64,000 nucleotides of DNA from Actinomycetota bacterium (GTDB taxonomy: Bacteria; Actinomycetota; Acidimicrobiia; Acidimicrobiales; Iamiaceae): assembly GCA_016185275.1 (NCBI GenBank), contig JACPNX010000044.1, positions 124,001 through 188,000 on the forward strand. The letters run 5' to 3'. This document shows positions 1 to 3,866 of the stretch, one piece after another. The notes beneath the pieces are model-generated. The model was not told the origin of the DNA. It did not search any database and worked only from the letters and a program-made list of their open reading frames with translations. The first letter of the stretch is position 1. Every line of letters begins with the position of its first letter. The position numbers and the translations under genes are program-made.

Positions 1-1
1 C

Positions 2-874
2 ATAGTCGGAGGCCCCCCGGCGAAAGCGTCCTGGCAGGGTCGAACGCTGCCAGCATCGTCGGACGTGCCGCCTCCCCCGGGCATGGTGGACTGGCCCGTG
101 GATCATGGGGACGGCTGGATTCACTACCCAAACCCGGTATTGCCGAGGGCACTGGGCAAGGCTTCGCCAAGGCCCAGGTTCGTCAAGGGAAGCAGAGACG
201 GCAACGGCGACTGCCTCTTTGCCGACATACAGGTCGTGTCGCCTGGAAGTTCCGGCGTCTTCACGGAGGACGTCGCGTTCAACCCGACCACCTGTGACCG
301 TATGGTCCTCACCAGTCCGCTGGATGCCGCGGCGTCGACCGCCTTGGCGAACCTGACGGCCGAGCCCGCCTCCCCTCCGGCGACGACGGCAGCGGCCGGC
401 CCGACCGGCCCCGTTGGATCGCAGAAGTCGTCCTGGTACGACCCCGTGCAAATCACGATCACCTCATTGGCGGCAAATGCGGCGATCAACTACGACGGCC
501 ATGGCAACGACACCTACGGTGCCAGCAGCTACGTCTTCAAGTACGATGGATGGACCGGCGGCCCGCCGGCGCTGCGGCCAACGGATTTCGGCGACGACCC
601 CCTGCAACTCATCGCAAGTGTCACGAACTACAATCGCGACTTTCTCGCAATCATGATCGCTCTTGCGACCTTGTCGGGCGTACCCGGGGCATCAGCCGCA
701 GTTATGGCTGCATGTGGGTTCCCGACCAGTACCCTCGCCAGGTTTTCGCACTATGAGGTCGTCGATGTCTACAAGTCTGGGCAAGTTGTCGGACAGGACA
801 ACGACACAAAATCGGGCGCATGCAGCAATCTCGTCCACCATCATCAGTGGACCCGCAACTACAAGCAACGGTAG
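2..874 (+). CDS. Exported-type protein with 'EDVAFNP' domain, 5' end outside window (copy A)
   Basis: The reading frame is open to the left edge, so the true start and probable signal peptide are likely upstream; the first in-window start codon is GTG at 65. I do not recognise a named family. The block DGWI-Y, a Gly/Cys/Phe stretch, PGSSGVFTEDVAFNP and TCDR matches the protein at 2312-2779, so the two are paralogues. After this block comes an Ala/Pro/Thr linker and a C-terminal part of about 150 residues that the second copy lacks. Two Cys pairs could form disulfides. It is followed 12 bases later by a lipoprotein gene. GC content looks lower than in the rest of the window, suggesting acquired DNA. 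Export is inferred from the paralogue; the function is unknown. Confidence 0.7.
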   Translation: MVGGPPAKASWQGRTLPASSDVPPPPGMVDWPVDHGDGWIHYPNPVLPRALGKASPRPRFVKGSRDGNGDCLFADIQVVSPGSSGVFTEDVAFNPTTCDRMVLTSPLDAAASTALANLTAEPASPPATTAAAGPTGPVGSQKSSWYDPVQITITSLAANAAINYDGHGNDTYGASSYVFKYDGWTGGPPALRPTDFGDDPLQLIASVTNYNRDFLAIMIALATLSGVPGASAAVMAACGFPTSTLARFSHYEVVDVYKSGQVVGQDNDTKSGACSNLVHHHQWTRNYKQR

Positions 875-886
875 CGGGCCGAGCGC

Positions 887-1381
887 ATGTTGATGCCGCA
901 AAAGGCGCCCGGGTTGAAGTGCCTGGTGCTCCTCGTGTTCCTGACGCCGTCTCTCTGGGCATGTTCGTCAACCGGTGCACCGCCGCCTGTGGGGCGTACG
1001 CGCAGGCACCTCAGGCCCGAACAGGTTGCTCTGCAATATACCGACGCGTTCGCGCGGTTTCAGTTCTCCCAGCCCGATGTATCGGAGATGGTTGTGGCGA
1101 ATCAGAGGGACGTCCTCAAGAACTGGGCAGCTGGTGTCGCCGCACAGCCTCGTGCCAAAGCCGGTTGGACGAAGGATCTGCGAGTCGGTTCGGTCGTAAC
1201 GAGGGGCAACGTCGCGACGGTCGTCATGACAGGTTCCGTGTGCTACCCGCGGGCCAAGCCGGTGTGCGCAACGAATGTGGATCCGAAGTCCAAAGATCGA
1301 AATTGGCGCGTCAACACCGTCAGAATCGGCTCCGAATGGTATGTCTACTTCACGGTTCCCGGGTATAGGCCGCCAGCGTGA
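887..1381 (+). CDS. Small putative lipoprotein, function unknown
   Basis: 164 residues. The N-terminus has a basic stretch, a hydrophobic core (CLVLLVFLTPSLWAC) and a lipobox-like LWAC, so it is probably lipid-anchored at the outer face of the membrane. The mature part, with EQVALQYTDAFARFQF early and a C-terminal WRVNTVRIGSEWYVYF, resembles the small NTF2-like/Mce-associated type of extracytoplasmic alpha+beta domain, but I cannot name the family. It lies between exported protein copy A and the GNAT gene, whose GTG start overlaps this stop by 4 bases (GTGA), which implies translational coupling. Confidence 0.7.
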   Translation: MLMPQKAPGLKCLVLLVFLTPSLWACSSTGAPPPVGRTRRHLRPEQVALQYTDAFARFQFSQPDVSEMVVANQRDVLKNWAAGVAAQPRAKAGWTKDLRVGSVVTRGNVATVVMTGSVCYPRAKPVCATNVDPKSKDRNWRVNTVRIGSEWYVYFTVPGYRPPA

Positions 1382-1989
1382 GGCGCGAAGAGCAGCGACC
1401 GAAGCGCGCAGATCCGGTCGGTGCCGCTCTTGCCAACGATCGAATCTCTCTTGTGGTGCCGGACGTCGAGCATTACCGATCGCTTCGGCAATGGGAGCTG
1501 TCGGGGTATCTTGCGGTGAGATGGCGGCATCGAGGCCTCACGCCCAGCCCTCAGGCGTTCGAGGAGACGCTCTGGGCAGGGGTGATCGCCCAGTACCTCG
1601 TCGCCGAGAAGAGCACTGGGACCGTACGCGGCATCGTGGCTGCGTACGATGCCAACTTTCAGAGCGGCTACGCACACATCGCTGCGGCCAAGTTCGAGGC
1701 AGCCGACTGCTCTTTGGCGGTAGCTGAGGGCAGTTTGCTACTGGTGAACCACGTATTCAATTCCTGGCCCGTCAGGAAGCTGTACTTTCGCCTTCCGGAA
1801 TTCAATCTTCGTCAGATTGAAGGAGGTCTGCGACGGTTCGCCGTCGAGGAGGCTCGATTGGCCGGCCACGTCTTTGCAGGAGGCCGATTGTGGGATGAAG
1901 TGACCTTTGCGCTCTACCGGGAGCGGTGGGAGAAGGATTGCACGATCTTCGACCGGATACTGGAACCGCATGGCGAGGCGGTATCATGA
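1378..1989 (+). CDS. GNAT-fold N-acyltransferase-like protein (intact copy)
   Basis: 203 residues. The C-terminal half has the RimJ/RimL-type pattern: a helix (VNHVFNSWPVRKLYFRL), then PEFNLRQ where the family has N-x-x-S, then a segment ending GGRLWDEVTFALYRERW. The N-terminal strand RISLVVPDVEHYRSLRQWE is the usual first strand and helix. The acyl-CoA pyrophosphate loop (Q/R-x-x-G-x-G/A) is not clear, so substrate and activity are uncertain. It overlaps the lipoprotein gene (GTGA) and the acyl carrier protein gene (ATGA). A GNAT coupled to an ACP gene hints at an acyl-ACP-dependent transferase; that is inference. A broken paralogue lies at 3365-3866. Confidence 0.7.
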   Translation: MRREEQRPKRADPVGAALANDRISLVVPDVEHYRSLRQWELSGYLAVRWRHRGLTPSPQAFEETLWAGVIAQYLVAEKSTGTVRGIVAAYDANFQSGYAHIAAAKFEAADCSLAVAEGSLLLVNHVFNSWPVRKLYFRLPEFNLRQIEGGLRRFAVEEARLAGHVFAGGRLWDEVTFALYRERWEKDCTIFDRILEPHGEAVS

Positions 1990-2315
1990 ATCGGGCCGAT
2001 CTGGTGATCAGGCAGCTGGACCACGTGCTCCAGGATTGGGGAGGCGACAGGGTGGGCATTGACGAGCTTGATTCTCTCGAATTGCTCGAGCTCGTGCAGC
2101 GTGTCGAGGCAGTCGTGGATCGCGAGCTGCCCAGAGAGATGTTCGACGCGTGGGACACGTTGGCGGACGTGCGAGCGTTCGTCGTCGATGTCGTCGATGT
2201 CGTCGATGTCGTCGATGACGCTGATGGGCAGTTCGGGGTTGCGCCGCAGCTCGAGACGACCCCACGTCTCCCCGAAACGCACCAGAGACGCCGGACGGAG
2301 CGGACCGAAGGATGA
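1986..2315 (+). CDS. Acyl carrier protein-like protein
   Basis: 109 residues. ELDSLELLELVQRVE holds the DSL motif whose Ser (about residue 29) would carry 4'-phosphopantetheine, followed by the acidic helix II and a third helix (WDTLADVRAFV), as in ACPs. A tail beyond the ACP fold contains four VVD units encoded by a 9-bp tandem repeat. The ATG at 1986 overlaps the GNAT stop (ATGA), and the stop overlaps the next ATG at 2312 (ATGA), so the gene is embedded in one operon. No fatty-acid or polyketide synthase gene is nearby, so this looks like a dedicated carrier, perhaps supplying the adjacent GNAT. ACP identity rests on the motif and helix pattern. Confidence 0.75.
   Translation: MNRADLVIRQLDHVLQDWGGDRVGIDELDSLELLELVQRVEAVVDRELPREMFDAWDTLADVRAFVVDVVDVVDVVDDADGQFGVAPQLETTPRLPETHQRRRTERTEG
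2181..2218 (+). repeat. 9-bp tandem repeat in acp gene
   Basis: GTCGTCGAT is repeated four times within the carrier protein gene, encoding the VVDVVDVVDVVD stretch after the ACP fold. It is in frame, so copy number could vary without breaking the gene. Confidence 0.85.
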
Positions 2316-2779
2316 CCTGCCACAAGACGATCTCCAGAGTTGCGCTTGGCGTCTCGGCCGCGGTCATGGCGATGGCGCCTGCGGGGCGACTCGCGGCGCG
2401 CGCGGGGCCGTCGGCGACGTCCTCGTCGAACGGCGCGGAATCGTACCTACCGTCCTCGAGGCCAGACGGCTGGATCGAGTACCGGGGCTCCCTCGTCGGT
2501 CAACTTGACGTGCCGGCCGGCCCCCCCGTTCTCGTCCCGGGGATGCGCGATGCGGCGGGCAGTTGCGTGTTCGACGACACGCAGATGGTCCAACCCGGTG
2601 AGGTGGGCGTGTTCTCTGAGGATGTCGCGTTCAACCCGGCGACGTGCGATCGCAAGGTCATCACGGTGCGCCTGACGCCAGCCGCCTCTGCACGGCTCGA
2701 TCGGCTGCAAGCCTTGAGTGAGGCTTCGGGTACGACGCTCACCGTCTCCGGCAGCATGGCGCACACCCGGGGGCGCTGA
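2312..2779 (+). CDS. Exported 'EDVAFNP' protein, shortened copy B
   Basis: 155 residues. The N-terminus (MTCHKTISRVALGVSAAVMAMAPAG) looks like a signal peptide. PDGWIEY, the G-x-C-x-F-D-D-x-Q block, PGEVGVFSEDVAFNP and TCDRKV align closely with the protein at 2-874, so they are paralogues. Copy B stops soon after this domain (SGSMAHTRGR) and lacks the long C-terminal part of copy A, so it is either a shorter family member or a truncated duplicate. Its ATG overlaps the acp stop (ATGA). Function unknown; I infer that the shared domain acts outside the cytoplasm. Confidence 0.7.
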   Translation: MTCHKTISRVALGVSAAVMAMAPAGRLAARAGPSATSSSNGAESYLPSSRPDGWIEYRGSLVGQLDVPAGPPVLVPGMRDAAGSCVFDDTQMVQPGEVGVFSEDVAFNPATCDRKVITVRLTPAASARLDRLQALSEASGTTLTVSGSMAHTRGR

Positions 2780-2780
2780 G

Positions 2781-3368
2781 GTGGGACCCGACCGTGGCAG
2801 TCGATCCGCTGGACGGGATGGCACCCGGAGGGTCAAGGAGTTCGCATGCCTGCACGTCCGCCGCTCGGGGCTGCTGCTGCTCCTGGGGGCGAGCATGGTC
2901 GCGGGCGGCATGCTGCTCACCCGGGCGCCCAGCCGACCGCCGGTCGTGCACGCGACCACGGAGTCGCGCGTCGACCCGGCGCCAGTACCGGGCGAGATCC
3001 GCGCCCTCGCGCTGCGGCTCCCGGCCGACAACCCGCAACGCGCCTTCCTCGCCGACGGGATGGTCACCGTCGAGGAGCGCGAGGCCGCCGCCACGGCGGC
3101 GCGCGACTGCTCGCTGGCCGCCGCGCGCCAACTGGGCCTGCGCGCCTCGGCCTCGCGCGCCGACCAGGACGGCGTCGCCGGCTACGAGTTCGCGATATCG
3201 GGCGACGAGGCCCGCACCACACTGTGGGAGGCACGGTCCGACCGCTGTGGCGACGCCAACGAGGCACTGGTGGAGGCCGCGCTGAGCGGCGGCAGCGCCT
3301 ACGACGACGCGGGGGTGAACCAGCTCGAGGTGGACCTCGTGCGCAACCGCGTCCTGGCTGCCGCGTGA
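2781..3368 (+). CDS. Membrane-anchored or exported hypothetical protein
   Basis: 195 residues from the GTG at 2781, one base after the previous stop; the frame is open further upstream but this start fits the operon spacing. Residues about 32-50 (SGLLLLLGASMVAGGMLL) form a single hydrophobic segment, a signal anchor or signal peptide. The rest is soluble, with three Cys (about residues 110-155) and alternating charged helices. I do not recognise a family. It occupies the position that the lipoprotein has in the first cassette but is not obviously similar to it. Its stop overlaps the GTG of the broken GNAT gene (GTGA). Confidence 0.6.
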   Translation: MGPDRGSRSAGRDGTRRVKEFACLHVRRSGLLLLLGASMVAGGMLLTRAPSRPPVVHATTESRVDPAPVPGEIRALALRLPADNPQRAFLADGMVTVEEREAAATAARDCSLAAARQLGLRASASRADQDGVAGYEFAISGDEARTTLWEARSDRCGDANEALVEAALSGGSAYDDAGVNQLEVDLVRNRVLAAA

Positions 3369-3866
3369 CCGTTCCTGTGGGTCTTGCCGGACGGCGCGTC
3401 GCCCTGCGGCCGATCCGTCACGAGGACCTGCCGTGCATCGACGAGCTCGAGACCGGTGCCGTCGACGCTGACGACCTGGCGACACGGCCCTCGGACCGTG
3501 TCGCCCGCTGAGCTCGCCCGGGGGTTTCTGCGGTACCTCTTCGACACGTGGCGGCTCCGGCGTGTGTACGCCGAGGTGGCCGAGTTCAACCTCCACCAGT
3601 TCGGGCGGGCGACGTCGCTGTTCGGCGTCGAGGGTCGCAGGCGCGAGTACGTCTGGCTGGGTGGTCGCTTCTGGGACAGGGTGATCCTCGGGCTGTCGCG
3701 GGAGCGGTTCGAGCACGAGCGGTTTCGGGTCGGTCGCGCCATCAGCGGGAAGGTCGGCGCGCCGTCCGATCGGCCCGCGGCCGGTCGTGCTCGGCCAGCG
3801 CCTCCCACGGTGGGCGACGTGCGCGCCTACGTCGAGTCGGCCGCCGCCGAAGCACACCACGCCTGA
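3365..3866 (+). pseudogene. GNAT-family acyltransferase remnant (internal deletion plus frameshift)
   Basis: The GTG at 3365 overlaps the previous stop and opens a GNAT-like N-terminus (LAGRRVALRPIRHEDLPCIDELE) that reaches a stop at 3509-3511. The matching C-terminal half continues in another frame from about 3500: ARGFLRYLFDTWRLRRVYAEV, then AEFNLHQFGR, then GGRFWDRVILGLSRERFEHER. This aligns with the intact GNAT at 1378-1989 (VNHVFNSWPVRKLYF, PEFNLRQ, GGRLWDEVTFALYRERW). About 90-100 central residues are missing at the junction, so a deletion with change of frame has probably inactivated it. The tail after the GNAT part is Ala/Arg/Pro-rich. An assembly error at the junction cannot be excluded. 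Confidence 0.7.

Follow-up and report, generated by a model that had tools for sequence, protein, structure and literature searches.

A tandemly duplicated cassette of exported protein, lipoprotein, GNAT and acyl carrier protein genes in an actinobacterium of the Iamiaceae, and the recurrence of its GNAT-carrier pair

We analysed a cassette of exported protein, lipoprotein, acyltransferase and acyl carrier protein (ACP) genes at the start of a 64,000-nucleotide stretch of DNA (hereafter, the window) from an actinobacterium of the family Iamiaceae, order Acidimicrobiales (assembly GCA_016185275.1). The window covers bases 124001-188000 of a 233.6-kb contig (C42; JACPNX010000044.1) in a genome of 3.44 Mb that is 93% complete. 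Two successive cassettes lie on one strand: the first holds the genes for exported protein A, a lipoprotein, a GNAT-fold acyltransferase and an ACP, and the second those for exported protein B, a further exported or anchored protein, and a GNAT-ACP that has decayed. All the genes named in a preliminary description of this DNA were present in the sequence, in the order given there (window coordinates):

1..874, + strand: exported protein A (P0001/P0009), with its ATG 88 nt upstream of the window and the signal peptide MRGGKARVERRGARKFSRIGIIGAVGTAAVIVGG
887..1381, + strand: small lipoprotein (P0002) with the lipobox LWAC
1378..1989, + strand: GNAT-fold acyltransferase (P0003) with a degenerate coenzyme A (CoA) pyrophosphate-binding loop, FEAADCSLAVAEGS
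1986..2315, + strand: ACP (P0004) with the phosphopantetheine serine in ELDSLELLEL and a low-complexity tail
2312..2779, + strand: exported protein B (P0005), which has the N-terminal block of A without A's C-terminal part
2781..3368, + strand: exported or N-anchored protein (P0006), with a homologue in locus L091
3365..3511, + strand: N-terminal remnant of a second GNAT (P0007), from reading of the sequence
3384..3866, + strand: frame P0008, with the C-terminal half of the second GNAT from ~3498 and then an ACP-like tail without the DSL serine

The stop/start contact described for successive genes was read directly as four-base overlaps (GTGA at 1378, ATGA at 1986, ATGA at 2312, and GTGA at 3365), and because of these the genes between the lipoprotein and the broken GNAT, both included, read as a single coupled unit. 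The lower GC content noticed over the first ~2.3 kb was also found: it was 0.60-0.67 over the first 2.2 kb (0.60 over A to ACP) against 0.71-0.76 after 2.5 kb. A and B, said to have the DGWI and EDVAFNP blocks in common, share 49% identity over 90 aa (E=2e-23), far beyond chance, in the block DGWI...EDVAFNP.TCDR. P0006 is present as described, but its label "membrane-anchored" was corrected, as the protein may equally be secreted because VHA|TTE resembles a signal-peptidase site. The second GNAT proved broken, as claimed: an N-terminal stub and the C-terminal part are kept (remnants 3365-3511 and 3384-3866), ~75-80 central residues are gone, and the protein aligns solely to the C-terminal part of P0003. 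The ACP-like tail of P0008, "TVGDVRAYV", contains no serine, and its resemblance to ACP is weak (E=0.025). We tentatively regard the cassette as a mobile-looking, tandemly duplicated copy of a recurrent actinobacterial module that comprises a secreted protein, a lipoprotein or anchored partner, a GNAT and an ACP.

No Pfam family matched P0003, A or B, and no meaningful Pfam or NCBIfam match was obtained for these proteins and the lipoproteins. P0003 was placed in the GNAT fold by its AlphaFold2 model (pLDDT 85.8), which has a SpeG/PseH-like fold (TM about 0.65-0.8), and by its relatives, since 19 of the 26 family members match PF13302 (Acetyltransf_3). Profile A1 matched 49 PDB sequences, among them SpeG, RimJ/L and PseH; the GNAT alignments A1 and A2 were judged too diverse. 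The Q/RxxGxG/A motif, which binds the CoA pyrophosphate, is typical of CoA-using GNATs and is not required of ACP-using ones. It is missing from P0003 and kept in 6 of 54 GNATs. P0003 therefore remains a GNAT by fold despite the loss of the motif, and such rarity of the loop would be expected of enzymes with a donor other than CoA. The CoA-contacting elements are likewise missing from ApxC, which has the GNAT fold and uses acyl-ACP (PMC8339906).

Across the order, the GNAT was found in 33 of 198 sampled genomes, several of which hold two to six copies, and at the phylum level few strong matches lay outside the order (G418, G594, and G485). The named relatives of P0003 are from uncultured actinobacteria, one of them labelled Acidimicrobiaceae. 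Among viral contigs, phages and plasmids, neither A nor B nor the GNAT had a relative showing linkage; a remote GNAT from a plasmid cluster of Streptomyces atratus was rejected, having no ACP annotation.

P0004 is a carrier domain with the DSL serine that scored 18.5 bits against Pfam PP-binding (PF00550), just under the cut-off of 20.8, and the host genome has only two PP-binding loci besides it. A carrier-domain profile from ten family ACPs was run on all six-frame open reading frames (ORFs) of 41 GNAT loci (514 kb). An ACP was detected in 21 of the 41 loci (E<0.01), each inside or beside the GNAT on the same strand, and no ACP-like ORF was found elsewhere in the 514 kb; ten of the matches were profile seeds and 11 were independent of them. 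The recurrent linkage with GNAT and ACP genes that the preliminary description proposed as support for a system was thus observed. The ACP is fused to the GNAT in 12 loci (7 N-terminal and 5 C-terminal), and separate ACPs lie within 430 nt. Pfam PP-binding matched 6 of 26 GNAT ORFs and, at E<0.01, 7 of 10 further proteins, four of them above the curated cut-off. Fusions at either end and separate genes are dispersed across the GNAT tree; the fusion state changes 16 times or more on this tree, many branches of which are weak. Outside the order, the GNAT and ACP are fused in L090 and L091 and adjacent in L092. The constant part of the module is the GNAT-ACP pair, and the variable part is the exported protein.

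Given the variability of the exported protein, a survey based on EDVAFNP yields almost nothing. The sole homologue of A found outside the host genome, a full-length one in locus L052 of another genus, lies in an exported protein-lipoprotein-GNAT array and was counted towards the recurrent linkage; P0002 has a homologue at the same position there (E=3e-5), so that the order A-lipoprotein-GNAT recurs. P0006 has a homologue directly upstream of the fused GNAT-ACP in L091, which belongs to another order of the class (E=2e-13). Weak matches of A in G230 and G063 fell in unrelated frames and were rejected, and an AlphaFold model of A from a two-row alignment (pLDDT 33.5) was not used for the fold search. 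We make no claim on the weak likenesses between exported partners (E 0.004-0.05), which scored close to a reversed-sequence control whose best value was 0.0095.

An exported gene was found within 2 kb upstream of 22 of 41 GNAT blocks and 27 of 147 control genes (p=1.6e-5), a comparison that rests on a crude home-made gene caller and a signal-peptide rule that misses some exported genes, the window's own A included. The pair might be a unit that merely happens to lie where genes are sparse, evolution is fast and exported ORFans abound, as the exported partners are mostly non-homologous and a predicted exported gene is missing at roughly half of the loci. However, the four-base overlaps, the repeated gene order, the enrichment, and the accessory pairs conserved across distant genomes (P0006-L091, P0002-L052, and A-L052) all speak against unrelated neighbours, which we consider unlikely.

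These results are best read as a GNAT module that depends on acyl-ACP and is associated with a variety of secreted proteins. By analogy with HlyC/ApxC, we tentatively propose that the GNAT-ACP pair acylates the co-encoded secreted protein before its export. Modification of the partner is favoured because the exported partner is variable and the GNAT-ACP pair constant; the overlap of the ACP stop with the start of exported protein B, indicating translational coupling, was also counted in its favour. The ACP would carry an acyl or aminoacyl group, obtained from the host fatty-acid pool or, at some loci, through an adjacent AMP-forming ligase; AMP-binding (AMP-forming) ligases adjoin the pair in L032, L038 and L039, and the window's cassette holds none. 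The GNAT would take its donor from the ACP, not from CoA, and move the group to an amine of the co-encoded secreted protein in the cytoplasm, ahead of export, akin to the action of HlyC/ApxC on the RTX protein before secretion. On the outside, the lipoprotein or anchored partner may receive, anchor or protect against the modified protein. The intact GNAT-ACP of the first cassette could serve both A and B, the pair in the second having decayed. It seems doubtful that this extends to a general actinobacterial acylation of secreted proteins in the cytoplasm by dedicated acyl-ACP/GNAT pairs with interchangeable exported substrates, that is, a Gram-positive counterpart of HlyC-type lipidation.

Several observations weigh against acylation of the partner. 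About half of the GNAT loci, including L052, the closest syntenic locus, have no nearby ACP; the serine has apparently been lost (by eye) in the ACPs of L036, L045 and L063, which are fused or adjacent to the GNAT; and the nearest solved structures are the CoA-using SpeG and PseH. Few of the exported partners are related to one another, and neither a common recognition motif nor a conserved acceptor residue was found in them: the common block of A and B holds no lysine common to both, and A has just one lysine (K173) in common with the homologue in L052. To these may be added the crude basis of the exported-neighbour comparison, and the acceptor need not be a protein.

Synthesis of a small molecule is almost as likely as partner modification. 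The pair may make a small N-acyl molecule, as FeeM, acyl-homoserine lactone synthases or SbzI do, and the exported proteins and lipoprotein may sense, bind, process or transport that product, a possibility that we also hold only tentatively. The actinobacterial SbzC and SbzI, as well as FeeM, are ACP-dependent GNATs acting on small molecules (PMC6331615). Genes in the vicinity of some members include ligases, SnoaL-like proteins, a P450 and MacAB-type exporters, and the nearest structures are polyamine acetyltransferases. On the other hand, most loci, the window's included, are without further biosynthetic genes, and the exported neighbour differs by locus, which is not easily explained by a single small product.

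The fast-changing exported partner, the adjoining lipoprotein, the tandem and decayed copies, and the low GC content would also suit a toxin-immunity or competition cassette, in which an exported antibacterial effector is activated or inactivated by the GNAT-ACP pair and the lipoprotein confers immunity; PIN-domain toxin-antitoxin-like genes nearby and MacAB-like exporters at L037 and L061 point in the same direction. However, no toxin or immunity domain was detected in the proteins scanned (Pfam and NCBIfam), and some exported partners resemble secreted trypsin-like proteases or repeat proteins (by eye, no Pfam match). We consider such a role improbable.

Among known systems, HlyC/ApxC shares with the proposed acyl-transfer module the GNAT fold, an acyl-ACP donor, the loss of CoA elements and a gene position beside that of the acylated exported protein (PMC8339906). 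In contrast, the window's cassette is without an RTX protein or a type I secretion operon and encodes a dedicated ACP, the sequence relatives of its GNAT are SpeG/RimJ-like PF13302 proteins rather than RtxC, and acylation of its partner is putative; no Pfam or NCBIfam match to RtxC was found in the cassette proteins or GNAT family members scanned. FeeM-type N-acyl amino acid synthases are also GNAT-fold enzymes taking an acyl group from ACP, whereas the window's operon holds an exported protein and a lipoprotein; no FeeM entry was present among the 49 PDB sequences matched by profile A1 or the 50 best fold matches. SbzI and SbzC, actinobacterial GNATs of SB-203208 biosynthesis in Streptomyces, used in vitro acyl groups bound to the carrier proteins SbzG/SbzK and loaded by AMP-forming ligases; they belong to a small-molecule cluster, for which the available text of the source describes no exported protein partner (PMC6331615). 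The fatty-acylating GNATs of ribosomally synthesized and post-translationally modified peptides (goadvionin, selidamides, and nostolysamides) are likewise encoded beside the gene of the lipidated polypeptide, but their acceptors are short leader-bearing peptides accompanied by the enzymes of such pathways, and the in vitro donor of NpuN is acyl-CoA (PMC13060382). The partners in the window are proteins of 155-320 aa with signal peptides.

No description of the combination of exported protein, GNAT and ACP was found in the open-access literature, subscription papers being outside the scope. The suggestion that the cassette forms a system was supported, but the system is not wholly new: because acyl-ACP-dependent GNATs are already known, this is a new arrangement of known chemistry. 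At the sequence level, GNAT and ACP are paired repeatedly, with differing exported proteins, in many related genomes, which points to an acyl-transfer module that is linked to secretion and not yet described. Should secreted proteins be the target of the pair, actinobacteria would have a new way of lipidating or acylating proteins, and the ACP-fused members would offer compact acyltransferases open to direct testing; even as a maker of small molecules, the pair would be a recurrent, self-contained acyl-transfer module without a name in domain libraries.

Upstream of the window, at a distance of 3-4 kb (window -4313 to about -3124), a third, more decayed cassette was identified, with the following parts:

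L003:11687-11932: start of an exported protein
L003:11919-12572: lipoprotein
about L003:12626-12876: start of a GNAT, a weak match alone (E about 1e-5 to 7e-7)

It is flanked by direct repeats of 126, 97 and 63 nt derived from neighbouring genes, a pattern as duplication and then deletions would leave. The likeness of its lipoprotein to that of L092 (E=0.004) is suggestive only.

Other genes were observed beside related loci. Mutually homologous SnoaL-like proteins are encoded beside the GNAT at L026:7267-7761, L030:3888-4412 and L040:7803-8276. An adaptor (HlyD/PG-binding-like), an ABC ATPase and an FtsX/MacB permease lie directly upstream of the GNAT at L037:4826-8274 and L061:6374-11109, a possible exporter variant of the module; the exporter-linked GNAT of L061 has an ACP. 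An extra, upstream ACP-like copy in L033 has apparently lost its serine too (by eye).

The decayed third cassette is adjoined on the - strand by a PIN-domain toxin (PF01850) and a small antitoxin-like ORF (L003:10669-11258). It also adjoins a mosaic of three short direct repeats at L003:11291-11567 (window -4709 to -4433), copied from the region of a UGSC gene and its neighbour. This gene (L003:12884-13447, - strand; window -3116 to -2553) encodes a UGSC-family selenoprotein with an in-frame TGA, identified by NF041046 (166.7 bits, cut-off 125). The genome has a tRNA-Sec above the cut-off and a SelB-like gene just under it, and a standard-code gene finder cuts the selenoprotein gene into two.
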